A stretch of 39,635 nucleotides of DNA, taken from Bacteroidota bacterium (GTDB lineage Bacteria; Bacteroidota; Bacteroidia; B-17B0; Aurantibacillaceae). Made by a program: the position numbers and the translations under genes. Positions 4,569 through 35,371 of the stretch are shown here, in pieces. The notes under the pieces are model-generated. The model saw nothing but the letters and a program-made list of their open reading frames with translations. It did no database searches and was not told the DNA's origin. Within the stretch, counting starts at the first letter, position 1, and each line of letters opens with the position of its first letter. Location: assembly GCA_013697245.1 (NCBI GenBank), contig JACCXH010000029.1:1-39635 (forward strand), given 5' to 3'.

Positions 4569-4631
4569 TCTTTATTTCTATTTACATCTCTCAGTTTTTA
4601 TAAACCCGACAGGTGTTATTGTTTAACATTT

Positions 4632-5240: not shown

Positions 5241-5306
5241 CTATTTTAGTTTTTAATTTTTGTTTTAAATAATTGCGTTTTTCCGTTTTGCATCTTGTGT
5301 CTTATA

Positions 5307-6563
5307 TCATTCATCCACTTTTTTCGCTTTCTCTTTTTTCTTTACTTTATCTTTTAAAGGAAGTATGAGTGTATAACCCAAACGTTTTTTTACATCGCTT
5401 CCTGTATCGCTATAATCGTGGTATTGTAAACGGTATTTAAAATCAAGATCGTTCTGGTATTCCATAGCTATCTCTACAAATAGCGAAAGCCTGTCTTCGA
5501 ATGTAACATTACCAATAGCTTTAGGGAATTTGTAATCAATTAAATATTCAAATAAATTGGCTTTTGTTTGCGTTAAGAAACGCTCTACTAACTTTTCAGT
5601 ATCTAATTTTATTTGTTGTTCTAAACCCTTGTCTTTAAAGTCACCGGCCATTTTGCCGGCAATACCGCGCACCATTAAACGGGTAAGCTTATATTTTTCG
5701 GCAATACGTTTACACAAAACGTGTCCATCATCGGTGTATAAAAAGTCGATGGCAATTTTTGTTTTTGGTGTTTTGTGCCCGTTATGTTTTAGCGTGTTGA
5801 TGCCGGAAACTATTTCTTTAAAATTTGTACGGTAGTACAACGAACCGTGTTCCTTGATCTCTTTTAAACGTTGTGCTTTTTTGTACACGTCTATCTGGAA
5901 CTGGATCTTATTGATAAAATCGGTAATATCCGTTTGGATCTCGATCAGGTAATCTAAGTTCTCGATCAAACTTACTTTTAGTGCCGAAACAATTCCGTAA
6001 AGCTCCGAATCGTTAGTTAAACTAAATAAAGCCCGGGTATCTTCAACAACATCAGATGTTTTTTTTATGAACTCAATGATGGTGTCACGTTTTTCCCTAT
6101 AATCTTCGAGCTTTTGAAGCTTGATGCGATAATTACTTTCGTTCTTGTAAGTATCATCTACATTTTTCTGAAGCTTAATGATCTCGCGGGTTAGCGTAGC
6201 GTTAATACGTTTTAAATATTTTTTTATGCTTCGCAGGAATCGCATTTCGCGGGCTTCTTGGTAAAAGCGAATGTGGCGATTTAGTTCGTTGATGTAATCG
6301 TTGATGAAGCCCGGCGTAACTTCGCCAATCTCCATAAAATCTTCGAACATGGCAACCACTGCATCGTTCAGACTAACAATGTTTTCGTACTCGTAAACGA
6401 GATCGAGTGATTTTAATTTTTGATATTGTTCCGCCGAAATATCTTCGCGCGACAATAATTCGTTTACCGTAATGTTCTCGCGGTTGGCGAATAGAAACTC
6501 AACTACGCCACGTTGGTGGTAGAGTTGAGAGAGAATATCGTTAACATTGACCTGTAGTGCCAT
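5307..6563 (-). CDS. MukF/MksF/JetA-like kleisin subunit
   Basis: A 418-aa, largely helical and charged protein without signal or membrane segments. Residues 1-70 look like a winged-helix domain, residues 90-260 form a long helical/coiled-coil middle region, and the C-terminal 130 residues are a second small domain ending in a lysine-rich tail. This fits the kleisin of MukBEF-like complexes (MukF/MksF/JetA, roughly 400-500 aa), which bridges the SMC heads and binds the MukE-like dimer. It is the first gene of the operon, so the promoter should lie in the 220-bp spacer before it. The ATG at 6563 is the only sensible start. Individual domains are not strongly diagnostic by eye; operon order carries the assignment. 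Confidence 0.75.
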   Translation of the reverse strand: MALQVNVNDILSQLYHQRGVVEFLFANRENITVNELLSREDISAEQYQKLKSLDLVYEYENIVSLNDAVVAMFEDFMEIGEVTPGFINDYINELNRHIRFYQEAREMRFLRSIKKYLKRINATLTREIIKLQKNVDDTYKNESNYRIKLQKLEDYREKRDTIIEFIKKTSDVVEDTRALFSLTNDSELYGIVSALKVSLIENLDYLIEIQTDITDFINKIQFQIDVYKKAQRLKEIKEHGSLYYRTNFKEIVSGINTLKHNGHKTPKTKIAIDFLYTDDGHVLCKRIAEKYKLTRLMVRGIAGKMAGDFKDKGLEQQIKLDTEKLVERFLTQTKANLFEYLIDYKFPKAIGNVTFEDRLSLFVEIAMEYQNDLDFKYRLQYHDYSDTGSDVKKRLGYTLILPLKDKVKKKEKAKKVDE

Positions 6564-6623
6564 TTTTATACCTAATTACTAAAAATACGAAGGCTTGGCT
6601 TTTTAAAGAAATGCCTTTATTAA

Positions 6624-6656
6624 CAAAAAAAGCGGTAATTAACTTTTTGTTTCAAA
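6624..6656 (-). promoter_or_regulatory. Possible promoter of the SMC operon
   Basis: On the minus strand TTTG (6656-6653) is followed after 21 nt by TTTTTTTG (6631-6624), 7 of 8 matches to the Bacteroidota -7 element TAnnTTTG. The leader would be about 55 nt. Spacing is slightly long and the T-run weakens the match. Confidence 0.3.
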
Positions 6657-6757
6657 AGACTTGATTTTAAAGGAATTGTGAAGAGAATGCTAAGCAAATA
6701 AAGTATTAACAACTGTTATTAAGAGTTAACAGGCTGTTGATAAGTATAGTTTTAAAC

Positions 6758-6781
6758 CACTAAGGCACTAAGGACACAGAG
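6758..6781. repeat. Tandem 8-bp word CACTAAGG with degenerate third copy
   Basis: CACTAAGG occurs at 6758-6765 and immediately again at 6766-6773, followed by ACACAGAG. It sits in the spacer between the SMC operon and the glycosyltransferase gene. Similar word-like spacer repeats occur at 16367-16448 and 17767-17829. Confidence 0.55.
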
Positions 6782-6786
6782 TTTTA

Positions 6787-7941
6787 CTAAGAAATTTTTG
6801 TTTTCTCAAATAAACTAATTAGCACACTTATAAACTCAGTCCATTCGTATTTTTTCTTTTCGAGTTTTACATTTTGGGTGAATTCATTCTCTTTATTTTT
6901 CGTGAAATAATCAATTATTTTTTCAGAAATCTTTGGAACTGAAGTATCCACAACGTAACCACATTTTTCGTTCGGCACAATTTCTGCCAGTCCACCTACA
7001 TTGGTCACCAACATAGGTTTCTCATAAAAATAGCCCACCATGGTAACGCCGCTGTTAGTAGCATTTCTATAGGTCTGCGCTATTAAGTTACTGGCACAGA
7101 AATAATATCTTACTTCTTCGTTAGCAATAAATTTATCGTGAAGAATGATCTGCTCCTGCAAATTATGTTTTTTAATAAGATCTAAATAAGGTTGTTTGTC
7201 TTCGTAAAATTCGCCGGCAATTAATAATTTAATGTTTTGCTTTTTTATTTCAGGATCGTCCATTGCTTCCATCAAAAGATCCAGGCCTTTGTAATGACGG
7301 ATCAAGCCAAAGAATAAAATAATTTTATCGCTGTTGTTTAAATTCAATTTTTTGCGGGCTTCCTCCATAGATACCATGCCACCGTATGTTTCATACATGG
7401 GATGGGGAGAATAAGCTTTATTTTTTGTATCGGAGAATTTTGAAATATCATTTAAAACCGTTTTACTCATGGCAATAAAACCATCGCAGCTTTTTACAAA
7501 ATAATTGGTAAATGGTCTATCGCCAAAACGTTTTTCGTGTGGAATAATATTATCCGTTAAAGCCAATACTTTTGTTTTTGATCTTACCCGGCGCCCGATG
7601 GTGCCTAAAGCAGGACCAAAAAAGGGTAGCCAATAACGGAATAAAATAAAATCCGGTTTTTCTTTTTTTATAAAGCGCGCTACTTTAAACCAGTTAAAAG
7701 GGTTAACCGTATTAATTAATGTATGGATCTTTATTCCTGCCGGAGCTTTGCCGCTAGTTTCAAATTGTGTGGAGCCCGGGAATAAAAAATTAGGATATTG
7801 TAACGAGTAGGAAATTGTCTGTGCATTGTGCCCGGCCTTGTTTAATTCAAAGCAAAGGTTCTCGTTAAACTGCGCGGGGCCGCCGCGGAGAGGGTAGGCG
7901 GGGCCTACAATAAATATTTTTAAATTGGGTTTGTTTTCCAC
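6787..7941 (-). CDS. GT4-family glycosyltransferase (GT-B fold)
   Basis: A 384-aa glycosyltransferase of the group 1/GT4 type. The N-terminal Rossmann half opens with KIFIVGPAYPLRGGPAQFN, a donor/acceptor loop typical of GT4 enzymes, and the C-terminal half begins at KIILFFGLIRHYKGLDLLMEA. Further on, ATNSGVTMVGYFYEKPMLV and TNVGGLAEIV occupy the place of the usual ExxxxxxxE nucleotide-sugar region, although the first Glu of that motif is replaced by S/G. There is no signal peptide or membrane segment, so it probably acts at the cytoplasmic membrane face. It stands alone, divergent from the thioesterase gene, so the glycan it builds cannot be inferred from neighbours. Confidence 0.85.
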   Translation of the reverse strand: MENKPNLKIFIVGPAYPLRGGPAQFNENLCFELNKAGHNAQTISYSLQYPNFLFPGSTQFETSGKAPAGIKIHTLINTVNPFNWFKVARFIKKEKPDFILFRYWLPFFGPALGTIGRRVRSKTKVLALTDNIIPHEKRFGDRPFTNYFVKSCDGFIAMSKTVLNDISKFSDTKNKAYSPHPMYETYGGMVSMEEARKKLNLNNSDKIILFFGLIRHYKGLDLLMEAMDDPEIKKQNIKLLIAGEFYEDKQPYLDLIKKHNLQEQIILHDKFIANEEVRYYFCASNLIAQTYRNATNSGVTMVGYFYEKPMLVTNVGGLAEIVPNEKCGYVVDTSVPKISEKIIDYFTKNKENEFTQNVKLEKKKYEWTEFISVLISLFEKTKIS

Positions 7942-7966
7942 CGCTATAAAAATACTTTTTTATTCT

Positions 7967-8000
7967 TTAGGAAATTGTTTCTTAGGTTAATATTTCCTAA
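7967..8000. promoter_or_regulatory. 9-bp inverted repeat between divergent genes
   Basis: TTAGGAAAT (7967-7975) and ATTTCCTAA (7992-8000) form a perfect inverted repeat with a 16-nt spacer, midway between the divergent glycosyltransferase and thioesterase starts. A weak plus-strand promoter (TTG at 7975, 20 nt, TAATTTCA at 7998) overlaps it, so it could be an operator. No regulator is encoded next to it. Confidence 0.35.
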
Positions 8001-8021
8001 TTTCAATAGCAAAATAGTTTT

Positions 8022-8576
8022 ATGGAAGATAATTTTAAAGAAGTGAGTTACTCGGCTACAACTGTGAGCGAATTAATGATACCGGCCTATGCTAATTTTG
8101 GAGGAAAGATACATGGTGGCATTATTTTATCGTTAATGGATAAAGTGGCGTATGCCTGCGCATCAAAGCACGCAAGCAATTACTGCGTAACTGTTTCGGT
8201 TGAGAACGTGGATTTTATTGAGCCTATTGAAGTAGGCGAGATGGTTACATTATATGCCTCGGTAAATTATGTTGGCACTTCTTCAATGGTTGTAAGGATA
8301 AAAGTAATAGCTGAGAATTTTTTGGTTGGCACCGTTAAACATACCAACACTTCTTACTTTACCATGGTGGCTAAAGATGCTAAAGGTAAACCCACAAAAG
8401 TACCGGGACTAATCTTAGAAACCAAGGAAGACATTAAACGGTTTTTAGAGGCCATTAAACGTAAAGAGTTAAGAACAACTTACAAAAAAGCCATGCAGGA
8501 TGTAAGGATATCCTTACTTGTTGAACCTGAAAATAAAATGTTGGAGAATGAAAGGTGTATGTTGAAATTGGTATAA
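8022..8576 (+). CDS. Acyl-CoA thioesterase, hotdog fold
   Basis: A 184-aa hotdog-fold acyl-CoA thioesterase of the YciA/ACOT type. The characteristic motif sits at residues 25-45: N/FGGKIHGG followed by ILSLMDKVAYACA, with the catalytic Asp in LMD. A second strand-rich segment, VSVENVDFIEPIEVGEMVTL, is the conserved core that follows in this family. The enzyme would hydrolyse acyl-CoA to free acid and CoA in the cytosol. The C-terminal 50 residues are charged and helical. It converges with the TPR gene with only a few bases between the two stops. Start and length fit the family. Confidence 0.88.
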   Translation: MEDNFKEVSYSATTVSELMIPAYANFGGKIHGGIILSLMDKVAYACASKHASNYCVTVSVENVDFIEPIEVGEMVTLYASVNYVGTSSMVVRIKVIAENFLVGTVKHTNTSYFTMVAKDAKGKPTKVPGLILETKEDIKRFLEAIKRKELRTTYKKAMQDVRISLLVEPENKMLENERCMLKLV

Positions 8577-8580
8577 AAAT

Positions 8581-10056
8581 TTATTTTTCACTGTTTTTTA
8601 GACGATCAATATTTTTTGCGAAATACTTTTCGTTTGGCAATAAAGCTTTTTGAATTCGCTGCGCATACCGAATACTATCAATGATCTCTTTTTGTTTATC
8701 GTCAACCAATTGTTTTTGTTTTTCAACTTCTTCTTTTTGACTAATGATAATTTTATTATCTTTTTGTTTTCTTTTAAAGCTGTTAAAAATAAATACCGAA
8801 AAGCCCAGCAATACTATAATACCGGTAATAAAAGCGATTTTTTGAATGTTTTGTTTCTCGATAATGCTTTCCTGCAACTGTTTATCTTTATTTAATAGTT
8901 CAATTTCTCTATCGCGTTTATCAGTTTCATATTTTGTTTGTATTTCGCCAATCTGGTTTTGGTTCTGCAAACTTTGAAGCGAATCTTTCGCCATCATGTA
9001 GCGGCGATTATATAAAAAAGCATTTTTAAAATCACCCGTCTGTGCATATAGCTCCGAGAGGGCAAGGCAAGAAACCTTCACACCTTCTTTGTCATCAATT
9101 TTTTGTGCAATAAGCAATCCTTTGTTAAGATATTCCGCCGCTTCTTTATACTTTTTTAATCGAATATAGTTATCTCCAATATTAGTGTAAGCTATTTCTG
9201 AATAAAATTCGTTATTGGTTGCTTCGTAAATAGGCGCAGCCCTAAACAGATAATCCAGCGATTTTTGAAAATGACCTTGTGATGAAAAACAAACGCCAAG
9301 GTTGGTATATATATCAGCTATTTTTAATTGATTACCCGCCGCCTGTTGGATCTTTAATGCTTCAAAAAAATAATACAGGGCTTTATCGTAATTCTTTAGC
9401 TCATTATAAACCAGGCCAAGGTTACCATATACTTTTGAGCGGTTAATATTGTCGTTTTTTTCTATTAATGGGATAGCCTTTAAAAAAAACTCTAATGCTT
9501 TTGTAAAGTTTTGCTGATCGTTATAAACATTGGCAATATTATTATAGCAGGTCATAATGCCTGTGCTGTCTTTTATCGATTCAAAAATGCGTAACGACTC
9601 GTATGAGTTGGTAATGGCTGCTCCATAATTTGCATTTGACTCATAAATTAAAGACAGATTGCGATACGAAAAAGCAATTAAAGTAGGATTACCAAAAATT
9701 TTGGCAAGTTCAAGCGCCTTTTTTAAATTTAACAGGGCGTCATTTTTCTTATGTTGGTAATTAAGCGCCATACCAATGTTATTATAACTATTGATCTTAC
9801 CGGAAGTATAATTTAGTTTTTCTGATAAAGCTAGCGCTTCATTACATAAGGTTATGGCTGAATCTGGATTTGCACGGCGAATGCTCTCAGACCTGGCATT
9901 CATATCATTGATCTTTGCGGTATCATTTTGTGATATCAAAAGAAACGGAAAAAAAAGGAAAAAGAAAATAACGATTTTGGAAAAAGGTTTTACCGCCTTT
10001 AAAAAAAAATGATCAGTTTTTTGATCGGCGAAACTCCTTTTTCTGTCAAATAGCAT
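8581..10056 (-). CDS. TPR membrane protein, truncated relative of TPR-PP2C/SpoIIE phosphatases
   Basis: A 491-aa protein with a hydrophobic N-terminal export signal (about residues 28-43), some eight tetratricopeptide repeats (about 55-370), one transmembrane helix (about 408-428) and a cytoplasmic coiled coil. It ends with DSIRYAQRIQKALLPNEK and about a dozen more residues. That linker is what normally introduces a C-terminal SpoIIE/PP2C phosphatase domain in Bacteroidota sensors of this layout, yet the stop comes immediately after and the next gene is convergent, so no catalytic domain is present. It is the third gene of a proS-hypothetical-TPR operon, 8 nt behind its neighbour. It could be a decoy or scaffold, or a decayed sensor. 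The TPR and TM calls are firm; the truncation interpretation is inferred from the linker. Confidence 0.8.
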   Translation of the reverse strand: MLFDRKRSFADQKTDHFFLKAVKPFSKIVIFFFLFFPFLLISQNDTAKINDMNARSESIRRANPDSAITLCNEALALSEKLNYTSGKINSYNNIGMALNYQHKKNDALLNLKKALELAKIFGNPTLIAFSYRNLSLIYESNANYGAAITNSYESLRIFESIKDSTGIMTCYNNIANVYNDQQNFTKALEFFLKAIPLIEKNDNINRSKVYGNLGLVYNELKNYDKALYYFFEALKIQQAAGNQLKIADIYTNLGVCFSSQGHFQKSLDYLFRAAPIYEATNNEFYSEIAYTNIGDNYIRLKKYKEAAEYLNKGLLIAQKIDDKEGVKVSCLALSELYAQTGDFKNAFLYNRRYMMAKDSLQSLQNQNQIGEIQTKYETDKRDREIELLNKDKQLQESIIEKQNIQKIAFITGIIVLLGFSVFIFNSFKRKQKDNKIIISQKEEVEKQKQLVDDKQKEIIDSIRYAQRIQKALLPNEKYFAKNIDRLKNSEK

Positions 10057-23726: not shown

Positions 23727-23798
23727 GGCCCGTTCGTCTAGGGGTTAGGACACGTCCCTTTCACGGATGAAACACGGGTTCGATTCCCGTACGGGCTA
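23727..23798 (+). tRNA. tRNA-Glu (anticodon UUC)
   Basis: A 72-nt cloverleaf. The acceptor stem pairs GGCCCGT with ACGGGCT (one G-U at the 1:72 pair). The D-arm contains GGTTAGGAC. The anticodon stem CGTCC/GGATG closes the loop CTTTCAC with anticodon TTC at 23760-23762, and the T-arm CGGGTTCGATTCCCG is canonical. The discriminator is A and CCA is not encoded. It sits at the left edge of an accessory patch containing an integrase, but no copy of its 3' end was seen downstream. Confidence 0.95.
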
Positions 23799-23855
23799 CT
23801 TAAGGTACTGAAAACCAACAACTTAAAGTAGCTGGTTGACAAAATGATTGACAAA

Positions 23856-24639: not shown

Positions 24640-24669
24640 AAATTGCTCTAAAACAGAGTAATTTTGGAT

Positions 24670-25098
24670 ATGCAAAAACCAAATGTCACATTATCAAAAT
24701 CCGTTCATAAGCAAAATCAAATTATTAAGATCTCCTTCGCGAAAAACGATACCGTTCAAAATAAATTGAAGGAAGTAAACGGTTTGCGTTGGAGTAAAAC
24801 TTTGGCTTCGTGGTATGTGCCTTTAAACGCTTACCCTTACACCCATCTTTACACTTTATTAAAAGATGTGGCTTATGTAGACTACAAACAGTTTCTTGTT
24901 TCTGATATTACTAATCCGATAGTCAATGATAAAACAACATTGCCTGAAATTGTTTCCATAAAAAAACCGGTTAATTGTTTAGGCGAACTTAACGATGAAC
25001 AAAAAATTAAACTAAACATATTTAAAAAATGGCTTGTTTCAAAGCGTTACGCCGCAAGTACAATTGAAACTTATACCGACGCTTTAAAAACTTTTTAA
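24670..25098 (+). pseudogene. Tyrosine recombinase, N-terminal part (frameshifted)
   Basis: First 142 codons of a tyrosine site-specific recombinase from the ATG at 24670 (a TTG at 24664 is in frame). Residues 1-75 form an extra N-terminal domain with the segment LRWSKTLASWYVPLNAYPYT; residues from about 115 begin the SAM-like core-binding domain (LNIFKKWLVSKRYAASTIETYTDA). Translation stops at a TAA right after ALKTF. The sense continues without loss in the -1 frame (LRYYNNTPIEELNNQ), so one base is missing in a run of five T at 25094-25098. This is an indel, or a sequencing/assembly error; a classical programmed -1 slippery heptamer is not present. By itself the fragment has no catalytic residues. 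Confidence 0.8.
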
Positions 25099-25832
25099 GG
25101 TATTACAATAATACGCCCATTGAAGAATTAAACAACCAAAGCTTAATCGATTTTAATAACGACTACATTATAAAGAATAAATTTTCGGCTTCTTTTCAAA
25201 ACCAGGTGGTTAACGCAATTAAATTATTTTTTTCGAGGGTGGAGGATAAAAAGCTTCAGCCTGAATTAATTCACCGGCCAAAGTGCCCAAAACTTTTGCC
25301 TAATGTGTTGAGTAAGGAAGAGGTAAAACAAATATTTGATAAAACCAGTAATTTAAAACACAAGGCTATGTTGAGTTTAATTTATGCTTGTGGGTTACGT
25401 TGTGGTGAATTACTTAAATTAAAATTTGAGCATGTTGATACGAAAAGAAATTTGCTGATAATTAAACAGGCAAAGGGCAGAAAAGACAGGATTGTACCCT
25501 TGAGTGCAAAAATACTAAGTCTGTTAATTGAATATTACAAAACATTTAAGCCTAAGATTTACCTGTTTGAAGGACAAACCCAAGGAGTTATGTATGACGA
25601 AAGAAGTTTACAACTGGTATTAAAAACCAATATATTAAAAGCAAATATTAAAAAGCCGGTAACCTTACATTGGCTAAGACACAGTTATGCCACGCATCTA
25701 TTAGAGAATGGCACAGATTTACGATATATACAGGAGCTATTGGGTCATAGCAGCAGCAGAACCACCGAGATATATACGCATGTAAGCACTCAAAATCTTC
25801 AAAAAATAACATCTCCATTTGATTATTTGTAA
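25099..25832 (+). pseudogene. Tyrosine recombinase, catalytic part (frameshifted)
   Basis: C-terminal continuation of the recombinase in the -1 frame. The remaining core-binding domain includes FSASFQNQVVNAIKLFFSRV, followed by a complete catalytic domain: Arg of GLRCGELLKLK, Lys of AKGRKDRIVPLS, the HWLRHSYATHLL box with its His and Arg, His of LLGHSSSRTTEI and the nucleophile Tyr of EIYTHVS. All six active-site positions are therefore intact. Joined to the first part the protein would be about 387 aa, normal for XerC/D-like integrases of Bacteroidota mobile elements. It lacks the insertion characteristic of integron integrases. Without the repair of the frame, no start codon or obvious ribosome-binding site serves this part, so it is probably silent. 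Confidence 0.82.
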
Positions 25833-26395: not shown

Positions 26396-26860
26396 ATGAA
26401 AAAAAAAGTTTCTTTTCTATTCTGGCAAAAGTGGTTATTCTATACCAGCATCTTATTCGCATTGTTTGGGATTAGTTTTGCCTTATTTGGAAATAATATT
26501 TTTTTTCGCCCCTATAACCAGATGCTCGCCAAAGTGTTTTGGAATCAATCTGAAATCCCATCCGAAGTAGAATCTTTTCGTGCTTTTATCTGGGGACCGT
26601 TAGGTGCAACAATTGCGTGCTGCTATATCCTATTAGCCTACATTGCATATTACCCGTTTAAAAGAAAAGAACGTTGGGCGCAGAAGGCTATTATCGCAGC
26701 TTTTGGCATTTGGGTTGTATTGGATTCGGTTGTTTGCATTAAATTTGAAGTTTATTTTCAGATTTATCTCATCAATGCATTCTCTATTATCATAAAGGCA
26801 TTGCCTTTGATTTTCACATGGAATGATTTTAAAGAACCTAATAGTAAAATTTCAACCTGA
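26396..26860 (+). CDS. Small four-helix membrane protein, unknown function
   Basis: A 154-aa protein with four predicted membrane helices (about residues 12-32, 66-88, 97-116 and 122-141) and short polar loops. A loop between helices 1 and 2 contains FRPYNQMLAKVFW and a conserved-looking FIWGPLGATIA. Basic residues at the extreme N-terminus and after helix 2 (PFKRKERW) suggest both are cytoplasmic. I do not recognise the family. It converges with the FAD oxidoreductase of the type III PKS cluster with only 2 nt between the stops, so it is not part of that operon. Confidence 0.7.
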   Translation: MKKKVSFLFWQKWLFYTSILFALFGISFALFGNNIFFRPYNQMLAKVFWNQSEIPSEVESFRAFIWGPLGATIACCYILLAYIAYYPFKRKERWAQKAIIAAFGIWVVLDSVVCIKFEVYFQIYLINAFSIIIKALPLIFTWNDFKEPNSKIST

Positions 26861-26862
26861 TC

Positions 26863-27987
26863 TCAAAATTTGCTCCCATGCGTAATAGTTATTAATTTAT
26901 CCGTCAATGCAGGAATTTTCTTTAGCAGTATAATAGAGATATTTGTCAATATTTCTCTGCCGAAAAGGTATTGTATATATTTTCCCGCTTTAATTTTGCC
27001 CGAAAAAAGATCATCCCATTGGTTTTTATATAATATTTCCATATCGCTCCGGGTAATATTTTTTTCTAAATACTTTTTTATTAATTGAAACGCAACATAA
27101 GAAGAGCGCATAGCCATACTCATGCCGTTTCCACATAAAGGAGCTATGTTGCCTGCCGAATCGCCCAACATTAAAACATTATTTTTTACTGCCGTTTTTT
27201 TATCGAACGTAATTTGTGAAATGGTGATTGGTCGGTCATAAAGGAAAACAGCCTCAGTAAAATATTTTTTTAAAAATGGATTCTTCATTAATATATTCTG
27301 TTCCATTGCTTTTATATCATTATCGTTATCTCTAAGGTTTTGAGAATTGGTCAAATAACATAAACAGTATTTGTCTCCGTCTACTTTTGAAATCCCACAG
27401 TATCCATCTTTGAAGTTATGCAACTCAATTCTGTTGGCAGGAAAATTAAGTTTTACATGGTGTTTTACGGCAATGTAATTTTTTCTGTTCGGTTTATTTT
27501 TTTTGTCTAATTTTTTATCCAACAATGATCGTTTACCATAAGCACCACACGCTACTTTTGTTTTATAAGTTTGTTGAGCAGCCTTTATCGTAAACGAATC
27601 ATTTTCAAAGATAATATCCCACACTTTAGTTTCTTCTAATAATACAACTCCTTTTTTTACAGCTATAGCGGCCAATGTCGAATCAAGGATATAACGACTA
27701 ATTCCGAATCCTCCCAAATCTAATTTTCGGGTAATAGAATTTCCATTCGGAGATGATATTTTTACTTCATGTATCATTGGAAGATTCATGCTACCAATCG
27801 GAACCCCAATTCGTTCCAAAAAATCGTAACTTTCCATAGAAATATATTCACCGCATACTTTATGAAAAGGATATTTTTCTTTCTCAAACAAAATAACTGA
27901 ATGTCCTGCCTCCGCTAATTGAATAGCTAAAGTTAATCCGGCTAATCCGCCTCCTATTATAGCGCAATCAAACAGTTTAGGATTCAT
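26863..27987 (-). CDS. FAD-dependent oxidoreductase of the type III PKS cluster
   Basis: A 374-aa flavoprotein of the geranylgeranyl-reductase/aromatic-hydroxylase superfamily. The N-terminal dinucleotide-binding motif IIGGGLAGLTLAIQLA (10-25) ends in an acidic residue at the strand-2 terminus (ILFEKE). HKVCGEYIS near residue 43 is the substrate-side loop of this group. The second FAD motif, VLMLGDSAGNIAPLCGNGMS, lies near 272-291. Its start overlaps the end of the methyltransferase gene by 11 nt, so it is the last gene of a four-gene operon. In the Streptomyces srsABC system a flavoprotein hydroxylates a type III PKS-derived resorcinol to a quinone; a comparable ring oxidation, or reduction of a prenyl chain, is the likely role here. 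Confidence 0.85.
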   Translation of the reverse strand: MNPKLFDCAIIGGGLAGLTLAIQLAEAGHSVILFEKEKYPFHKVCGEYISMESYDFLERIGVPIGSMNLPMIHEVKISSPNGNSITRKLDLGGFGISRYILDSTLAAIAVKKGVVLLEETKVWDIIFENDSFTIKAAQQTYKTKVACGAYGKRSLLDKKLDKKNKPNRKNYIAVKHHVKLNFPANRIELHNFKDGYCGISKVDGDKYCLCYLTNSQNLRDNDNDIKAMEQNILMKNPFLKKYFTEAVFLYDRPITISQITFDKKTAVKNNVLMLGDSAGNIAPLCGNGMSMAMRSSYVAFQLIKKYLEKNITRSDMEILYKNQWDDLFSGKIKAGKYIQYLFGREILTNISIILLKKIPALTDKLITITHGSKF

Positions 27988-28681
27988 TGGGGTAAATAAT
28001 TATTAAGTGCCGGAATGCCCAACGATTTTTTATAGTATAATTTTTAATTCCCGATTTTTGAAGAATAGATTGCCATTCTGGCTTAGTAAAACCTCTTAAT
28101 ACAGATAAGGGCGCATCATTTTTTACAAGTGCTGACTTTGAAAAAAATTTGGTAAGTATTTTTATCGAGTAATATGCAATAGGGTTTCTTTCTAAATCAT
28201 TAATGATGAATGTAGCTTTATTTTTACTGCATAATTTAATGAATTCAATAATTTCAATTTCAGTAAAATGATGGCAAAACAAAGATGCGTGAATAATATT
28301 AATTTGTATATGTTCTGAAAAAACATTCCTAAAATCTTCACACCTAAAGTTTATTTTATAATTAGTGCAATTAATTGCAGCATAATTAATACAGTCTTCC
28401 TTTAAATCAGCACCGTATAAGGTAATGTTGTAATCTTCCTTTTTCGCCCATTCTGCAAAAGCTTTGAGAGAATCTCCGCCTCCGCAACCAATATCCATAA
28501 TCGTATAAACCTGTGTTTTATTAGCCACAATTTTTTTTAATCCGTTTATTGAAACGGAATGACCACCTAGGTACTTATTGATAAACTCCAGTTCTGTTAA
28601 ATTTTGATAGAGTAAATCCTTTTTAATATCAGGTTCATCTAAAAGTTCTTTTTGATATGATCTTTGTTTAAACATTTTCAA
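27977..28681 (-). CDS. SAM-dependent methyltransferase of the type III PKS cluster
   Basis: A 234-aa class I methyltransferase. Motif I is IMDIGCGGGDSLKAF (61-75); the next acidic strand end is YGADLKED (about 94); ASLFCHHF and FIINDLERNP are the later core segments, ending in a C-terminal YTIKNRWAFRHLIIIY. Two ATGs lie close together (M1 and M3). The gene overlaps the upstream PKS by 14 nt and the downstream oxidoreductase by 11 nt. The arrangement matches known PKS-methyltransferase-flavoprotein sets that make methylated phenolic lipids, so O- or C-methylation of the polyketide ring is the likely reaction. The acceptor is not provable from sequence. Confidence 0.85.
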   Translation of the reverse strand: MKMFKQRSYQKELLDEPDIKKDLLYQNLTELEFINKYLGGHSVSINGLKKIVANKTQVYTIMDIGCGGGDSLKAFAEWAKKEDYNITLYGADLKEDCINYAAINCTNYKINFRCEDFRNVFSEHIQINIIHASLFCHHFTEIEIIEFIKLCSKNKATFIINDLERNPIAYYSIKILTKFFSKSALVKNDAPLSVLRGFTKPEWQSILQKSGIKNYTIKNRWAFRHLIIIYPNES

Positions 28682-29774
28682 GAATTACAGATTCCATTGT
28701 AAGCCCGGGGCCAAAAGCCACACCAAATGTTTTTTCCTTTTTCTGGGTATTCACTTTCGTTTCAAAAATATCTTTCAATACAAATAAAAAGGTTGATGAC
28801 GACATATTCCCATAATTTTTTAATACCCGAAACGAACTCTCAAGGTCACCTTTTTCCAACGCCAATTCTTTTTGGATTACTTCAAGTATTTTTCTTCCAC
28901 CAGGATGTACTGCCCAATGTGTAACTTCCTGTTTGTTAATTCCATGTTGGGAAATGGCTTTTTCAAAAAATGCTTTTATATCTTTTTGTATTAGTTGTGG
29001 AATATAAGCACTTAATGTCATTAAAAAGCCGGTGGATGTAAGTTCCCATGCCATATCGTTTTTACCCTTTAAAGAAACTTGCGAATGAAATTTTTTAATT
29101 TTAAAGCCATTTATTTTGTTTTTTGATGCATAGTCATCAGAAATTATCAGTGTTGCTGCTACGCCATCAGCAAACAAAAGGTTAGCGGTACTATTATCTA
29201 AGTCATCAATTTTTTGAAAATGAATGGTGCATAATTCCACGCAAACAATTAATACAATTGCATCCTCTTCGCTTTTGCAAATATAATCTGCTTGTTTTAG
29301 AGCGTGTATTGCGGCATAGCAGCCCATAAAATTGATAGAGGTTCTGTTTACATTTTCGTTTAATTTAAAATGCTGAACAATATCTATATCTAATCCGGGA
29401 GCGGATAATCCTGTGCAGGAAACTGTTATTAGATGTGTTATTTGCTGCTTGCTTATTTTTTTGGTGAAACAATTTTCAATAGCTTCAATACAAATAGGAA
29501 GTGCTGTTTTGTTATAATATTGCATTCTGTGTTCTATGGTAGGGAAAGGCTCAAGGTTTTTTGTATTCGAAAAAAACTTTCGCTTTTCAAGGGCACAATC
29601 AAAATCCGGAATTACAGAGTATCTGGTATCAATGCCGCTTTTACCATACATTAATTTCAATTTTCTTTTTTGGGAATCAGAATGATTAAGAAAGTCGGAC
29701 ATAAAGCCTGCTAAGTGGGATTGTTCATACTTATTTGAAGGTACAGCGGTAGCTATTTTGCAAATAACGCTCAT
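28668..29774 (-). CDS. Type III polyketide synthase (chalcone/stilbene synthase family)
   Basis: A 368-aa thiolase-fold homodimeric synthase that extends a starter acyl-CoA with malonyl-CoA. The catalytic triad is complete: C152 in NFMGCYAAIHAL, H290 in WAVHPGGRKIL and N323 in KNYGNMSSSTF. Family markers VSCTGLSAPGLD (118-129) and the C-terminal FGVAFGPGLTMESVIL (the GFGPG loop) are present. Its start overlaps the stop of the UbiA gene by 4 nt (ATGA). Bacterial members make alkylresorcinols, alkylpyrones or phloroglucinol. With a downstream methyltransferase and flavoprotein, a resorcinol- or quinone-type product is most likely; starter and chain length are unknown. Confidence 0.92.
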   Translation of the reverse strand: MSVICKIATAVPSNKYEQSHLAGFMSDFLNHSDSQKRKLKLMYGKSGIDTRYSVIPDFDCALEKRKFFSNTKNLEPFPTIEHRMQYYNKTALPICIEAIENCFTKKISKQQITHLITVSCTGLSAPGLDIDIVQHFKLNENVNRTSINFMGCYAAIHALKQADYICKSEEDAIVLIVCVELCTIHFQKIDDLDNSTANLLFADGVAATLIISDDYASKNKINGFKIKKFHSQVSLKGKNDMAWELTSTGFLMTLSAYIPQLIQKDIKAFFEKAISQHGINKQEVTHWAVHPGGRKILEVIQKELALEKGDLESSFRVLKNYGNMSSSTFLFVLKDIFETKVNTQKKEKTFGVAFGPGLTMESVILENV

Positions 29775-30664
29775 CCTGTAATGTTTAAAATTAACAGTAG
29801 AATGAAACAGACATTCATTGCCGTAGCAGCAATAAAATTCATATTCATCATATTTTTGAATGAAGCTTGGTTTTTATTTTTAATTACTTTATAGAACCAA
29901 ATCAAAAAATAAACGATCACCGGAAACAAAAAGAGTTGTAGATAAATAAAATGCTTTATTTTATCTATTCCATCAAAATAGAAGTAGAAGAAAAAATTGG
30001 CAATTACAAACATTATAGCACTAAAAATGAAAGTACCATTAATTCCCAATTTATAACTTATAGTAAAATCTCCACTTAGACTATCGGCATCGTGCTGATA
30101 CACCTGAGTGAGCGGATAAATTCCTCCTATCAGGAATGAGCAGCCTATTAAAGCCATGAGCAATATATTATCGAGTGCTATTGCATAGTTACTTATTGCA
30201 GAATAAACCATCCAAAACGTAAAAGCACCTTGAAAAAAAACGACGGTTAAAAACCCCGCAATAGCGAACTTTTTAAGGCGTATGCCTTTAAAGCTATACG
30301 CTCGTGATGCAATTATATAGAGTGCGACATAAATAAAAAATTGAATATTGATGAATAATGAAAGACTCAATCCCATAACATCAAAAATAATCGAAGTATA
30401 AAATAGTTTTTTAGTTGGTTTAGGTGGGTGCTCCAATCCGCCAATACTTGTTACATCCTGATCCATATAACTGTTATAGCCATTACTTGATGGATAGATA
30501 AATAAATGTAAAATAAAAAAACAAAGAATTGCGTTTGTCCAATTTACTTCAGGTACTTGACTGAGCGCAAGAAAGAAAACAGGCATTAGAAAGAACGAAA
30601 ATGGGATGCGGAGGAGCTTTAATGTATCGCTATCTATCTTTGATATTTTAATTCTTTCGCTCAT
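29771..30664 (-). CDS. UbiA-family prenyltransferase of the type III PKS cluster
   Basis: A 297-aa integral membrane prenyltransferase with eight to nine helices. The first Asp-rich motif is NSYMDQDVTS (N64, D68, D70) and the second is YQHDADSLSGDF (about 194-205), the DxxD-like Mg2+-diphosphate sites of UbiA enzymes. Such proteins transfer an isoprenyl chain to an aromatic acceptor in the membrane. It is the first gene of the operon and overlaps the PKS gene, so the natural acceptor is probably the PKS product; the pairing predicts a meroterpenoid-like membrane lipid. It could alternatively be a recruited menaquinone/heme-O type enzyme, but operon position argues against that. No consensus promoter was found upstream. 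Confidence 0.88.
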   Translation of the reverse strand: MSERIKISKIDSDTLKLLRIPFSFFLMPVFFLALSQVPEVNWTNAILCFFILHLFIYPSSNGYNSYMDQDVTSIGGLEHPPKPTKKLFYTSIIFDVMGLSLSLFINIQFFIYVALYIIASRAYSFKGIRLKKFAIAGFLTVVFFQGAFTFWMVYSAISNYAIALDNILLMALIGCSFLIGGIYPLTQVYQHDADSLSGDFTISYKLGINGTFIFSAIMFVIANFFFYFYFDGIDKIKHFIYLQLFLFPVIVYFLIWFYKVIKNKNQASFKNMMNMNFIAATAMNVCFILLLILNITG

Positions 30665-30971
30665 TGGTTAATCTTTGTGTAGAGTTTCGTCTCATTAATT
30701 GCCTTATTTATTAGTTAAATTTTTTATTTTAATATTAAAAATCTTTCACGTTTTCAATATTTTGAAAATGCAAACGATTTTCTAATAATTGTATAGGCTT
30801 TTTGTTTCTGCAACTCCGAAAGGTATTCCTCTCAATAAAGTTAGCTCTTCTTTTTTTAAATTTGGTAAGGAACATGATTATTGTTATAAAATCATACCAG
30901 CCAAAAGAAGCTAAGTATTAGTATATATAGAGTTATATTTAGCCACAATTCCCCAATTTGTAGACAAATGA
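30665..30971. other. Spacer upstream of the prenyltransferase operon
   Basis: AT-rich DNA without a complete gene and without a TTTG-N19-TAnnTTTG promoter on the minus strand, so the operon's promoter is not located. On the minus strand, 30782-30875 reads as about 30 codons (SLPNLKKEELTL, then LRGIPFGVAETKSLYNY and a stop) with coding-like composition, possibly another 3' gene remnant. Confidence 0.4.
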
Positions 30972-31280
30972 ACGCTATTAAGGAAATTTAAATCTCCATA
31001 CAGTACAGCCGATACAGAAAATAAACAACGTATTATAGGTTCGATATTCCCAGAACGATTGATTTATGAAAATAAGAGGTATCGAACCCTGAAATTAAAT
31101 CGTGTTGTTTCTTTAATTTGTATCAATGAAGGGCGTTTTAAAGGAGGTGAAAAAAGAAAGCACGCCTTATTAGATGTGCTTTCCTTAAAAGTTAGTGCCT
31201 CCAAGAATAGAATTCTTTTTAAATTCTTATGTTTTTTTTCGCTTTTTCTCAATGCAAATCTTCTGTGTACCGTGGGATGA
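30972..31280 (+). pseudogene. C-terminal remnant of a serine recombinase
   Basis: The frame runs from a stop at 30969 with no start codon. It reads TENKQRIIGSIFPERLIYEN, then KRYRTLKLNRVVSLIC. This 'IIGSIFPExLxFENxxYRT..N' pattern is typical of the extreme C-terminus of large serine recombinases (resolvase/invertase family) in Bacteroidota, after the zinc-ribbon and coiled coil. The catalytic serine domain and DNA-binding parts are absent. The last 40 codons before the stop at 31280 lose protein-like character, so homology probably ends near 31150. It marks the former edge of a mobile element. Confidence 0.55.
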
Positions 31281-31562
31281 TGGAACATAGATGGCGTAAT
31301 GGAACATACTGATTTTTTTAGTGTTACAATATTTATCTGTGTGGATGAAGCGCGCGCAAAATGTAACGACGGCGATAAGTCTGAAACTGTTCTTGGCCAA
31401 ACGTATACCACGTATTGTAGCCTTAAGTAATACCAATTTGATTTATTAAATAGTCCAAATATTTGAAACGAAGGCATATTCAAAATTGCATGTTTTAATA
31501 ATTTGCTCCGGAGAAATGGATTTAATAGTATTGGCAATAAACTCACTAATTTGGTCTAAGTT

Positions 31563-31935
31563 GGAGAAAGCGGTTTAAAAAAATCGCAGTTAAAAATAAG
31601 TGATAAAGCATTGGAGTTTTTAATTGAAACCTACACGGCCGAAAGTGGTATGTGTAACTTAGAAAAGAAAATTTCTAAAATAGCGCGTAATACAGCGGTG
31701 CATATTGCAAGTGAAGAAGATATCCCAAAGATAACCGAAGAAAGTGTTACAAAAATTTTAGGACCCTCGCACATAAAAGATAAATATCAGGGCAACGATA
31801 TTGCCTGCCAGTGTTGTAACCGGTTTGGCATGGACACAAGTTGGAGGAGATATTTTATTTATTGAGACCAGCTTAAGCAAAAGTAAAGCAGATAAGTTAA
31901 CCTTAACCGCTAATTACCCTTTAAAGGCTGTTTAA
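31563..31935 (+). pseudogene. lon: Lon protease fragment (frameshifted, both ends missing)
   Basis: The frame opens abruptly at GLKKSQLKISDKALEFLIE, continues TYTAESGMCNLEKKISKIAR, then [20 protein letters not shown]. This is the AAA+ lid-to-protease linker of Bacteroidota Lon. After GNDIA the sense shifts by one frame near 31803 and continues [20 protein letters not shown], then [12 protein letters not shown], the start of the Lon protease domain. It then loses homology and stops at 31933-31935. The ATPase domain and the Ser-Lys catalytic dyad region are both absent, so it cannot function. A complete lon is presumably elsewhere in the genome, making this a partial duplicate. Confidence 0.8.
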
Positions 31936-31941
31936 TAGGGA

Positions 31942-31980
31942 GAGAATCAAAATTTACTATTTTTGTACTTTTTGATTCTC
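31942..31980. repeat. 11-bp inverted repeat between two gene remnants
   Basis: GAGAATCAAAA (31942-31952) and TTTTGATTCTC (31970-31980) are perfectly inverted with a 17-nt spacer. A 12-bp direct repeat TTGTACTTTTTG (31963-31974 and 31986-31997) overlaps the right arm. The element lies exactly between the Lon and KAS III remnants and may be a rearrangement junction or a small insertion. Confidence 0.5.
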
Positions 31981-32001
31981 AGAACTTGTACTTTTTGTTT
32001 T

Positions 32002-32262
32002 TTTGATTATACAAATGAAAAGATGGATAGAGCAATTATAAGAGAATTTTACAGACTATATAATATAGACACCCCACCTGTTAATGTTTTGCCAATGAAT
32101 ATTCATTTACTGGGAAACAGCTCTGTAGCCACCATTCCAACATTGCTGGATATGGTTTTAAAAGAAGAGCAGGGAGATCACCGTCTTGAAAAGGGCGACG
32201 TGATTCTTTTCGCTTCTGTTGGTGCAGGCATGAATATTAACGCAATTACCTATATTGTGTAA
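32002..32262 (+). pseudogene. fabH: C-terminal remnant of beta-ketoacyl-ACP synthase III (FabH)
   Basis: About 85 codons matching the C-terminal end of KAS III. TNEKMDRAIIREFYRLYNI is followed by LPMNIHLLGNSSVATIP, which holds the catalytic Asn (GNSS), then KGDVILFASVGAGMNINA and the stop at 32260-32262. Before it, the codons read FDYTNEKMD where KAS III normally has a D-Y-I-I-x-H-Q-A-N-E-K-M-like string, so the segment with the catalytic His is missing. The Cys-containing N-terminal two thirds are absent too. The reading from the internal ATG at 32023 would give 79 aa; it cannot be an enzyme. Confidence 0.8.
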
Positions 32263-32320
32263 TATAATACCCGTATTATTTTTTAGGATTATTCTCTGTA
32301 GGTCTCTGATATCAGCAATT

Positions 32321-32350
32321 CTTGCCAAATATGGTTTTGGCATAATTTTG
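32321..32350 (+). promoter_or_regulatory. Possible promoter of the DUF3494 adhesin
   Basis: CTTG (32321-32324), 18 nt, then a perfect -7 octamer TAATTTTG (32343-32350), 60 nt before the ATG. The upstream element is imperfect. Confidence 0.4.
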
Positions 32351-32410
32351 TAGGATATTAATAGTCAGTTTTGACGACGCAAAAATTTATTTGCGTGTAA
32401 ATCACGAAAA

Positions 32411-33553
32411 ATGAAAACAAAATTATTTTTTAGTACAGCATTTATTGTGATGCTAGTCTTACCTGTTCAAAATTTTGCACAGGCACCAACACTTGGAACC
32501 GCCGCTAACTTTGTGCTTTTTACTAGTGTAGGAGCGGTTACAAATGTAGGGCCCTCTTATCTCACGGGTAACGTTGGATCAAACTCCGGATCAAGCACTG
32601 GTTTCGGAAATGTAGATGGAAATATGCTTAATAATAATGGCGCCACAGCATTGTGCGCATCTGATTTATTAATTGCATATAATCAACTTAATTCTACTGT
32701 TGCAGGTTTTTTTCCTGCATCTCCTTTAGGAAACGGAGCCACCTTAACCGCCGGCGTCTATTCACTTAGCGGTAACTCAATACTCAACAATACTTTAACC
32801 TTGGATGGTCAGGGAAATCCCAATGCTGTATTTATATTTTTAATCAACGGAACCTTTGCTTCAAATACAAATGCAGTCGTTCAATTAACCAATACTGCCC
32901 AAGCCTGCAATGTGTTCTGGAAAATTGAAGGTGCTGTTGGTTTATCTACCGGAACTAGTATGAAAGGAACCATAATTGCAAATAATGCAGCTATCAGTAT
33001 TAGTTCAAGCGTAACGCTCGAAGGAAGGGCACTTTCAACTACCGGAGCCATCTCTGTTAATAATGTTTTAGCCTATATACCACTTGGTTGTAGTGCGCCT
33101 ATATTAAATGGCCCTGCGGCACCGGCACTTGCTACAACAGCATGTTATGCTATCTTCTCGTCCAATGGAGCGGTATCGAATGTGGGTGTAACAACCGTAA
33201 CAGGCGATATTGGTAGTAACAACGGCTTAACAACCAATTACAATTCCCTTTTAGTTAATGGTACCATTCATCCCATACCTGATCTTTCCACTGCACAATG
33301 TTCTGTTGATTTAGGTAATGTTTACACCTATTTAAATACATTGACCGCAGATATCATTTTATTGTATCCGGCACAATTCGGAAATAACCTCGTGCTCACA
33401 CCACATACTTATTTAATGAATGGTGCTGTAACACTTACCGATTCATTATACCTAAATGCTCAGGGAAATGCAAATGCTGTTTTTGTAATTCAGGTAAACG
33501 GTGCATTTTCAACAAGTGTGAATTCTAAAATTATTTTGATTAACGGCACATAA
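32411..33553 (+). pseudogene. DUF3494 adhesin, N-terminal part up to in-frame stop
   Basis: First 380 codons of a large secreted protein. A signal peptide (about 1-24, ending NFAQ) is followed by a DUF3494 (ice-binding-like beta-solenoid) domain at about 25-225: LGTAANFVLFTSVGAVTNVG, NVGSNSG, YSLSGNSILNNTLTLDGQGN, SMKGTIIANNAAISI. A second DUF3494 domain starts at about 240 with ATTACYAIFSSNGAVSNVG. That second domain is cut by TAA at 33551-33553, inside the family segment that reads INGT-stop-AKNVFWKIDG. The frame continues uninterrupted after it, and a CAA (Gln) at this codon would restore the protein. As read, the product would be exported by Sec but has no T9SS sorting domain and would stay in the periplasm. 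DUF3494 proteins bind ice or act as adhesins. Confidence 0.82.
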
Positions 33554-35371
33554 GCTAAAAATGTTTTTTGGAAAATTGACGGGGCCTTAAGTATAAACGC
33601 TAACTCAATTTCTAAAGGTACATGGATAGTTAACAATGCGGCTATATTATTGGCGACCGGTGTTAATCTTAATGGAAGAATATTAACCACTACCGGTGCA
33701 CTCACTACAAATGCATCAACTATCAGCATTCCTCCTTCTATTGGAATTACAGCTGCCGCCATAAATCAAACTGTTTGTGTTGGAAGTCCGGTTGTTTTTG
33801 CGGTGTCATCCACTGGCGGAACTTCATTTCAATGGCGGAAAGGATTAGTAAACATAGTGAATGGAGGAGCTATTTCAGGTGCTACTACAGGCACATTAAC
33901 AATTAATCCGGTAGCGCTGAGCGATGCTGCAACAAATTATAACTTGGTAATTACCGGCGGATGTGCAGGAAACTTTACGACTCAAAACATCTCTCTTGTA
34001 GTAAATAATTCAGCCACAATTACAACCGCTATTAATAACCAAACTGTTTGTGCAGGAAGTGCCGCTAGTTTCACAGTATCTGTTCCGAGTGGAGGTGTTA
34101 CTTACCAATGGAGAAAAGGCACATTAAATTTGATCAATGGAGGAAATATTTCCGGCGCTAACTCTGCTTCTTTAATTATTAGTCCGGTTGCTGGTATTGA
34201 TGCTTCAAACAATTATAATATTGTCATCACAGGTTCTTGTTCCCTCAATTATACTTCCGCTAACGTTTCATTGGTGGTTAATAATTCTCAAACAATTACT
34301 ACAGCTATTAATAATCAAACCGTATGTCCCGGAAATTCTGCAAGTTTTCAAGCAACTACTTCTGTTAGCGGTCTTTTTTACCAATGGAGAATAGGTAGTG
34401 TTAATTTAAATAATGGTGGAAATATTTCAGGAGCTACTTCAGCTACGCTAGTAATTAACCCTGCAACAAATCCAGATGCATCTAATCTTTATAACGTATT
34501 AATTAGCGGTTCATGTGTTAATAGCTATACCTCACCCAACACTTCACTCGTGATGAGCACTCCGGCAACAATAACAGCCGTTGGTAATAATCAAACAGTT
34601 TGTGCAGGAAGTCCGGCCACTTTGTCAATATCAACTGCAGGAATAGGACTAAGTTTCCAATGGAGAAATGCAAGTACCAATTTAATAAATGGTGGAAATA
34701 TTTCTGGTGCAAACTCTCAAACACTTAACTTCAATCCTACTAATACAACTGATGCTTCGGCTAATTATAATGTTATCATTGGAGATGCCTGTGGTATAAA
34801 TTATACAACTACCAATATTTCTCTGGTGGTTAATTCTACAGCAGATCCAATTATTAATTCCAGTTTTTCGGTGTGTACAGGTAAACCCATTGATTTAACT
34901 TCTCAAACAATTGTAAGTGCCACTTATAACTGGAGTGGACCAAACGCTTTTACTTCTTCTTTACAAAATCCAAGTATACAAACGGCCGCCGCACTTAATG
35001 CAGGAACCTATTCTCTTGCTATTACTTCGAATAATTGTGCCTCTAAAACATCAACTGTGCTGGTAGCAGTAAATACCTGTAAGGACTCAGATTTCTTTAT
35101 TCCTGAAGGGTTCTCGCCTAACGGTGATGGTATTAACGATAATTTTTTTATAAGAGGTATTAACAATTTTCCGGAAAACTCTTTTGTAGTTTTTAACCGT
35201 TGGGGAGAAAAAATATTTGAGGCAAATCCTTACACCAACACTTGGAATGGAAAAACAACTATGGGTACTAGACTTGGTGGCGATCAGTTACCGGTTGGAA
35301 CTTATTTCTATGTTCTTGATTTGAATGACGGAAGTGAAGTATTTAAAGGAACCATTTATTTAAACAAATAA
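33554..35371 (+). pseudogene. DUF3494 adhesin, C-terminal part with Ig-like repeats and T9SS type B domain
   Basis: Same frame as the preceding part, separated only by the TAA. It completes the second DUF3494 domain (AKNVFWKIDGALSINANS, then SKGTWIVNNAAILL), then has four Ig-like repeats of about 91 residues, each with NQTVCxGS near its start, F/YQWRxG, NGGxISGA and a Y-N-hydrophobic-x-I-x-G strand. Next is a PKD-like linker with TCK, and last a type B gliding-motility/CHU_C sorting domain: FFIPEGFSPNGDGINDNFFI, VFNRWGEKIFE, WNGKT and LPVGTYFYVLDL. No usable start codon lies near its beginning (first in-frame options are TTG/internal ATG), so without readthrough this part is unlikely to be exported. 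The PorP/SprF gene 90 nt downstream is the usual partner of type B cargo. Confidence 0.82.
33740..34840 (+). repeat. Four tandem Ig-like coding repeats, about 275 bp each
   Basis: Units begin near 33740, 34015, 34290 and 34564, judged by the recurring ITxAxxNQTVCxG segment. They are similar but not identical, so they encode divergent domains and are less prone to slippage than perfect repeats. Confidence 0.7.

Follow-up and report, generated by a model that had tools for sequence, protein, structure and literature searches.

In Actinoplanes missouriensis, the type III polyketide synthase (PKS) of the agqA-D cluster and the products of agqB-D give rise to alkyl-O-dihydrogeranyl-methoxyhydroquinones; the available excerpts of the literature describe an alkylresorcinol that is hydroxylated and is prenylated by a membrane-bound enzyme, i.e. 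a polyketide O-prenylation (PMC10896814, PMC4044012, PMC7692728). The hidABC (hierridin) operons of cyanobacteria and the MT-oxidoreductase-PKS operons of Planctomycetota combine a PKS with a methyltransferase (MT) and an oxidoreductase around an alkylresorcinol core (excerpts of PMC8086630 and PMC10896814). Planctomycete PKSs from such operons produced alkylresorcinols in Corynebacterium, and the accompanying MT and oxidoreductase added one methyl group (PMC10896814, in part). Hierridin-type operons as a rule lack a UbiA gene, although the excerpts report one cyanobacterial cluster with a prenyltransferase. Here we describe a four-gene operon from a 39,635-nucleotide stretch of Bacteroidota DNA (contig JACCXH010000029.1, assembly GCA_013697245.1), the whole of which is called the window below. 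The operon encodes a UbiA-superfamily membrane prenyltransferase, a type III PKS, an MT and a flavoprotein and is an intact and conserved pathway.

By gene content the operon resembles agqA-D, in which agqB, C and D encode the methyltransferase, the flavoprotein and a UbiA-type prenyltransferase; agqA-D was originally described by Awakawa et al. 2011, ChemBioChem 12:439. In contrast to the actinomycete cluster, the window operon belongs to the Bacteroidota and has the UbiA gene in first position; its UbiA protein is a member of a family with atypical metal motifs. The PKS-MT-oxidoreductase trio of hidABC is likewise present in one operon, but in a different gene order and with UbiA added. We consider it reasonably probable that the operon makes a prenylated phenolic lipid, namely a methylated, hydroxylated and prenylated alkyl-phenol or hydroquinone. 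The general recipe is thus already known from an actinomycete, whereas here it is common in Bacteroidota and comes with an unusual prenyltransferase.

All four genes lie on the minus strand and follow each other in the direction of transcription as UbiA (29771..30664, 297 amino acids (aa)), PKS (28668..29774, 368 aa), a class I S-adenosylmethionine (SAM) methyltransferase (27977..28681, 234 aa from a TTG start) and a FAD-dependent oxidoreductase, probably a ring hydroxylase (26863..27987, 374 aa). UbiA and PKS overlap by 4 nucleotides (nt; ATGA), PKS and MT by 14 nt, or by 8 nt should translation begin at the ATG of position 28675, two codons further on, and MT and flavoprotein by 11 nt. All four proteins score above the curated Pfam cut-offs, and the earlier sequence-only reading was right about four genes with overlaps of 4-14 nt and about their families. 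Its claim that the four products are made together is supported by the conservation of the gene overlaps among the 105 unique loci described below.

PKS matches were found in 36 of 100 genomes (host included), many of them weak (<35 bits, mostly 20-30% identity). Twenty-nine PKS neighbourhoods were fetched, 28 from relatives with the stronger matches and one from a second operon of the host; this count excludes matches below 56 bits as well as a pair of PKS pieces at G090:C57, with 60.5 and 45.1 bits. All four genes were present in 23 of the 29, and UbiA adjoins the PKS in 25. Regarding the incomplete loci, L044 (near a contig end) and L064 hold only the PKS, L065 and L066 lack UbiA, L067 consists of UbiA and a partial PKS at a contig end, and the flavoprotein of L046 is replaced. 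A further 80 loci, selected by UbiA from named genome records and in part cut by contig ends, contained the PKS in 77, the MT in 72 and the flavoprotein in 66 cases; together with the 29, and minus 4 duplicates, they make up the 105 unique loci. In detail, genes were counted as near when they share a strand and are separated by -150 to 30 nt, the open reading frames (ORFs) being taken from the first possible start, which somewhat inflates the overlaps. Near pairs were UbiA-PKS in 69/87, PKS-MT in 86/93 and MT-flavoprotein in 76/87, with five further UbiA-PKS pairs on opposite strands. Four separate genes occur in 74 of the 105 loci, and 11 more have UbiA and PKS in one frame with MT and flavoprotein present.

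In addition, a UbiA profile was run against an even sample of 296 Bacteroidota genomes (E<=0.001). Matches were obtained in 110 of them: 21 (host included) at or above approximately 298 bits, 26 at 102-141 bits and the rest at or below 44 bits. In the close tier the PKS adjoins UbiA in 15 of the 20 genomes besides the host (14 of the 19 loci fetched, plus G074, i.e. L042), and in the second tier no PKS adjoined UbiA in any of the 11 loci fetched out of the 26. A collection with one genome per species holds at least 584 confirmed relatives of the window UbiA, for 80 of which the PKS linkage was checked. Searching plasmids with UbiA (tblastn) gave no match at 1e-5. Five of 154 PKS-matching plasmid records were examined with their annotation: PKS, MT and FAD genes are clustered on Methylobacterium, Deinococcus and Paludisphaera plasmids and likewise in Psychrobacter, there with the PKS on the opposite strand; no UbiA is annotated in the 5-6 kb covered at these sets.

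For the proposed pathway, the PKS would build an alkylresorcinol-type ring from a long-chain acyl thioester and malonyl-CoA, the MT would methylate this ring, the flavoprotein would hydroxylate it to a hydroquinone, and the membrane-bound UbiA protein would transfer a prenyl chain onto the ring or a phenolic oxygen. We infer the substrates, the ring type, the order of the steps, the position and length of the prenyl chain and the membrane location of the product, which should stay in membranes. The sequence-only reading had likewise predicted a prenylated, membrane-embedded, methylated polyketide; with the agqA-D precedent this is still the best reading. Its claim of canonical UbiA motifs proved wrong. 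It had also named, as a reason to give up the idea, a characterised strain in which the same four genes have an assigned product. The agqA-D cluster is of like composition and has one, in another phylum, and by that reading's own test the novelty of the operon is lowered.

The PKS contains both chalcone synthase-like domains, with 102.3 bits for Chal_sti_synt_C (PF02797) and 81.6 bits for Chal_sti_synt_N (PF00195), and the Cys-His-Asn triad of type III PKSs. The triad residues C152, H290 and N323 are invariant in 34/34 aligned PKSs. By analogy, an alkylresorcinol formed by aldol closure is the presumed product. The nearest solved sequences are 4b0n, 7cb3 and 1ted, the last being the mycobacterial pks18, which makes alkylpyrones, and no sequence feature that was tested separates lactone from aldol closure. 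Both points speak for a PKS that forms an alkylpyrone, which would then be decorated by MT and flavoprotein while UbiA prenylates the pyrone or another acceptor. We regard this as unlikely, since the PKS-MT-flavoprotein trio matches the resorcinol and hierridin operons as far as the excerpts describe them, and since a ring-hydroxylase-type protein occupies the flavoprotein slot of five loci, suggesting an aromatic ring.

The replacement at these five loci (L046, L133, L134, L140 and L141, with L134 lacking the PKS in place) also bears on the flavoprotein step itself. The replacing protein is a different one of approximately 526-557 aa. Three of the five were scanned with Pfam and gave 219-274 bits for PF01494; C-terminal aromatic-ring or phenol hydroxylase domains were seen in these, reaching the cut-off in L141 only. 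Such a ring-hydroxylase-type protein in the flavoprotein slot favours ring hydroxylation over prenyl reduction at this position. The window flavoprotein shows the FAD motifs IIGGGLAG and GDSAGNIAP and scores above the cut-offs for DAO (PF01266, 49.7 bits) and FAD_binding_3 (PF01494, 37.2 bits). Among NCBIfam entries it scores highest, with 112.4 bits, against TIGR02032, the geranylgeranyl reductase superfamily, and its solved matches include digeranylgeranylglycerophospholipid reductase (3oz2) besides halogenases and monooxygenases. On these grounds the flavoprotein could be a prenyl-chain reductase leaving a partly saturated tail, as in the dihydrogeranyl group of the agq products, with ring hydroxylation absent or carried out by another enzyme. 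The score lies below the cut-off of 158.8, however; the plasmid-borne PKS-MT-FAD sets, having no annotated UbiA nearby, would offer no prenyl chain to reduce, and the hydroxylase-type proteins in the same slot argue likewise against a reductase, which we thus hold to be quite unlikely. The MT matches Methyltransf_31 (PF13847) with 35.7 bits (cut-off 27) and the NCBIfam entry PRK06202 with 129.4 bits, under its cut-off of 243, and the SAM motif DIGCGGGD is visible in its translation.

The UbiA protein matches PF01040 with 47.5 bits (cut-off 34.2). Its AlphaFold2 (AF2) model, with a predicted local distance difference test (pLDDT) value of 93.9, clearly has the predicted UbiA fold: structure comparison gave Z 24.1, a root-mean-square deviation of 3.4 over 271 aligned residues and 16% identity with AfUbiA (4tq4), and Z 22.3, 2.9 over 258 residues and 15% with ApUbiA (4od5). 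The metal motifs depart from those of these proteins. In place of NDxxDxxxD, motif I reads N64-S65-x-x-D68-x-D70 without an Asp at 72, and in place of DxxxD, motif II reads Q190-x-x-x-D194, with Gln where the first Asp is expected. That all key residues are present, as had been claimed from the sequence alone, therefore holds for the PKS triad, the SAM motif and the FAD motifs but not for the two Asp motifs of UbiA. The same NSxxDxD and QxxxD motifs are found in 25/25 aligned PKS-linked UbiA proteins, including that of the window (L041, cut by a contig end, was left out of this set), in 19/19 proteins from the phylum sample, one of which has Asp at 72, and in 11/11 of a more distant UbiA group without PKS. 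S65 and D70 are invariant in the aligned family. His191 is invariant in the sets of 25 and 19 and absent from the distant 11; that it activates the acceptor is speculation.

In AfUbiA, N68, D72, D198 and D202 bind Mg, D76 being further off, and the equivalents of the four Mg-binding residues are needed in E. coli MenA (PMC4106721, in part). Judged by how the motifs are ordered and spaced, N64, D68 and D194 correspond to N68, D72 and D202 and are kept, whereas Gln190 takes the place of D198 and no conserved Asp that of D76. This equivalence rests on motif spacing and mainly on MAFFT alignments that include four further UbiA proteins of the host, not on a residue-by-residue comparison with AfUbiA. 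The family profile found no match among PDB sequences at E<=1; HHalign of the family against the host UbiA protein L004 gave a probability of only 3.7, yet paired the same motif columns, and against L006 gave no usable alignment. The altered site, in which throughout the three aligned sets motif II begins with Gln instead of Asp and motif I lacks a conserved Asp at its third place, together with the need of E. coli MenA for the AfUbiA D198 equivalent, would fit a protein that serves some function in the membrane other than prenyl-diphosphate transfer, with a different donor or by binding only, so that the end product stays unprenylated. This appears very unlikely to us given the three conserved metal-binding counterparts and the stretch Y123, S124, R129, K131, which resembles Y139, S140 and K146 of AfUbiA. 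Moreover, position 190 corresponds to Asp in three of the four further UbiA proteins of the host and to Asn in the fourth, haem O synthase; this enzyme thus also lacks a canonical motif II although it belongs to a prenyl-transferring family. In addition, AfUbiA D198A still bound geranyl diphosphate, with a dissociation constant raised 45-fold (PMC4106721, in part). The change in motif II therefore need not mean lost function. We file the protein as a divergent UbiA subfamily rather than a canonical aromatic prenyltransferase, and since the metal site is atypical in every aligned member, the chemistry by which this family transfers prenyl groups may not be the same as in MenA or E. coli UbiA.

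An identity with EboC/Ubi-297 of Flavobacteria was also considered. Ubi-297 and EboC belong to the UbiA superfamily and have aromatic acceptors; Ubi-297 lies in an ebo cluster and shows a DxxDxxxD motif (PMC9235831, in part). The window protein, also a Bacteroidota member of this superfamily, was set apart from them by its NSxxDxD motif, by its neighbours in a PKS operon and by giving no NCBIfam EboC hit at E<=0.001.

Several observations weigh against a prenylated phenolic lipid as the product. The flavoprotein is nearest to the geranylgeranyl reductases among the NCBIfam entries, motif II lacks the Asp whose equivalent E. coli MenA needs, no prenyl-diphosphate synthase gene lies within the operon, and 5 of the 19 close loci fetched from the phylum sample have UbiA without a PKS beside it. 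MT and flavoprotein are 21-31% identical to those beside the PKSs on plasmids (23% and 21%, respectively, for the planctomycete plasmid operon L072). Co-expression of the planctomycete MT and oxidoreductase resulted in methylation only, leaving the role of the oxidoreductase open (PMC10896814, in part), and four Phytohabitans strains with agqA-D orthologues showed no masses of agq products in the cultures tried, according to excerpts of the citing literature. The last two results indicate that products cannot be read from gene content alone, and they have lowered our confidence in the phenolic lipid. The literature searches on Bacteroidota gave type III PKS clusters as a class, for which excerpts of PMC7440613 and PMC10734526 report shares of 9% and 10.7% among flavobacterial clusters, and they found no product assigned to a UbiA-bearing PKS operon of this phylum.

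Genes of the YceI family were found at 17 of the 105 unique loci (18 genes, both up- and downstream, 13 of them within 200 nt). Only 1.1 would be expected, given 143 copies in 31 genomes (approximately 117 Mb in total, added up manually from rounded genome sizes) and 928 kb of flanking sequence; because the loci are related, the Poisson value of 9e-15 overstates the significance. The excess is a hint in favour of a prenylated product. One member was checked with Pfam for this assignment. No YceI gene lies beside the window operon. In the majority of YceI structures an isoprenoid is bound, for instance octaprenyl compounds or ubiquinone-8 (PMC9113575, in part), and an antioxidant or redox-lipid role of the product is our guess from this link. 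A wider picture, in which a widespread Bacteroidota pathway supplies prenylated polyketide lipids, the Gln-for-Asp UbiA site works by a distinct mechanism, perhaps O-prenylation, and YceI lipocalins carry the product, a membrane antioxidant or quinone-like lipid, through the periplasm, is conceivable but doubtful as a whole. If the proposed prenylated phenolic lipid is right, one conserved operon would account for a class of unseen membrane lipids, and prenyl transfer would be workable without a canonical motif II. As the carriers include culturable Dyadobacter and Flammeovirga, the pathway is directly testable.

Two features of the host had escaped the sequence-only reading, namely a second operon in the same genome and a small gene converging on the flavoprotein gene of the first. 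The second operon (L003, at C53) comprises UbiA (9115-9969), PKS (7945-9108), MT (7263-7976), flavoprotein (6154-7266) and a small membrane protein (5700-6170). Identities between the two operons are 38% for the PKS, 43% for the flavoprotein, 46% for UbiA, 49% for the MT and 56% for the small membrane protein. In a tree of the PKSs, the sole partner of the window gene is that of the congener G018 (support 100/100); the C53 gene is part of another clade, with seven members (100/100), and the deeper branching is left open. The host therefore has two old operon lineages and not a recent duplicate. A 40-residue UbiA-like match at C6 was considered as a third operon and rejected, as the surrounding 18 kb contain no operon genes but only a YceI gene. 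An ABC/MCE-type lipid transport set, putatively Mla, lies upstream of the C53 operon and of its relatives L061 and L063.

The small gene in the window (26396..26860, plus strand, 154 aa) encodes a membrane protein, possibly the fifth member of the operon, and ends 2 nt from the convergent flavoprotein gene. It is more alike between the two host operons than any of the four enzymes. Relatives directly follow the flavoprotein or hydroxylase gene in L003, L061, L062, L063, L046 and L133; among the 100 genomes the protein occurs in seven, host included, and adjoins the operon in five of them. It gave no Pfam or NCBIfam family match, and its model (pLDDT 76.6) gave no fold match at E<=0.001.

Of 15 Dyadobacter loci, 11 (L085, L086, L093, L094, L102, L103, L105, L107, L113, L128 and L148) have UbiA and PKS within a single open frame of 652-656 aa; the remaining four show a TTGA overlap between the stop of UbiA and the start of the PKS. 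A fusion enzyme is doubtful, since the C terminus of AfUbiA faces the outside of the cell (PMC4106721, in part) and since the TTG codon is conserved at the PKS start. Of 53 columns with invariant Leu, this is the only one with the same codon in 11/11, suggesting that TTG is probably still used as an internal start. Carotenoid-type genes lie downstream of the operon in Dyadobacter.

Some UbiA relatives stand in other contexts. L167, L170 and L171 hold a close-tier UbiA without PKS beside a methyltransferase-like gene, for which the Pfam match is strong in L167, below the cut-off in L170 and absent in L171, whose protein resembles that of L170; this context may show another acceptor for the subfamily. 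The distant group L182-L192 (27-35% identity) has the same NSxxDxD and QxxxD motifs and no PKS in 11/11 loci, and the three of these loci whose neighbours were listed share a similar-looking downstream gene, which Pfam marks as thioredoxin-like in L182.

Regarding other neighbours, no acyl-activating enzyme was found among the 7 families scanned with Pfam out of the 18 neighbour families most shared by the 105 loci. This is compatible with the earlier remark that a starter-supply gene is missing, but a missing neighbour does not show where the starter comes from. Fourteen loci, two of which lack UbiA, share a short-chain dehydrogenase gene (one member was scanned). In the gene-poor stretch upstream of the window operon, a C-terminal piece of a ketoacyl synthase III (PF08541; 31963-32262, plus strand) looks like a remnant; it was rejected as a starter gene, being a C-terminal fragment only, and the six frames of 30665-32410 match no ORF of the relatives' searched loci. 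Further upstream (32411-35371), an ice-binding-like gene (PF11999) ends at 33553 and is followed by a second ORF, while the homologue in L003 (13172-14797) is longer; such genes thus lie upstream of both host operons. On the other side, at 24664-25832, a tyrosine recombinase (PF00589) follows a 144-aa ORF, approximately 1.4 kb from a tRNA-Glu gene (23727-23799), possibly the scar of a mobile element. Finally, a three-gene set at 882-6563 encodes an SMC-like ATPase of 1228 aa together with two partner proteins (202 and 418 aa); it gave a weak AriA match only (31 bits) in PADLOC and resembles MksB/Wadjet-type operons.

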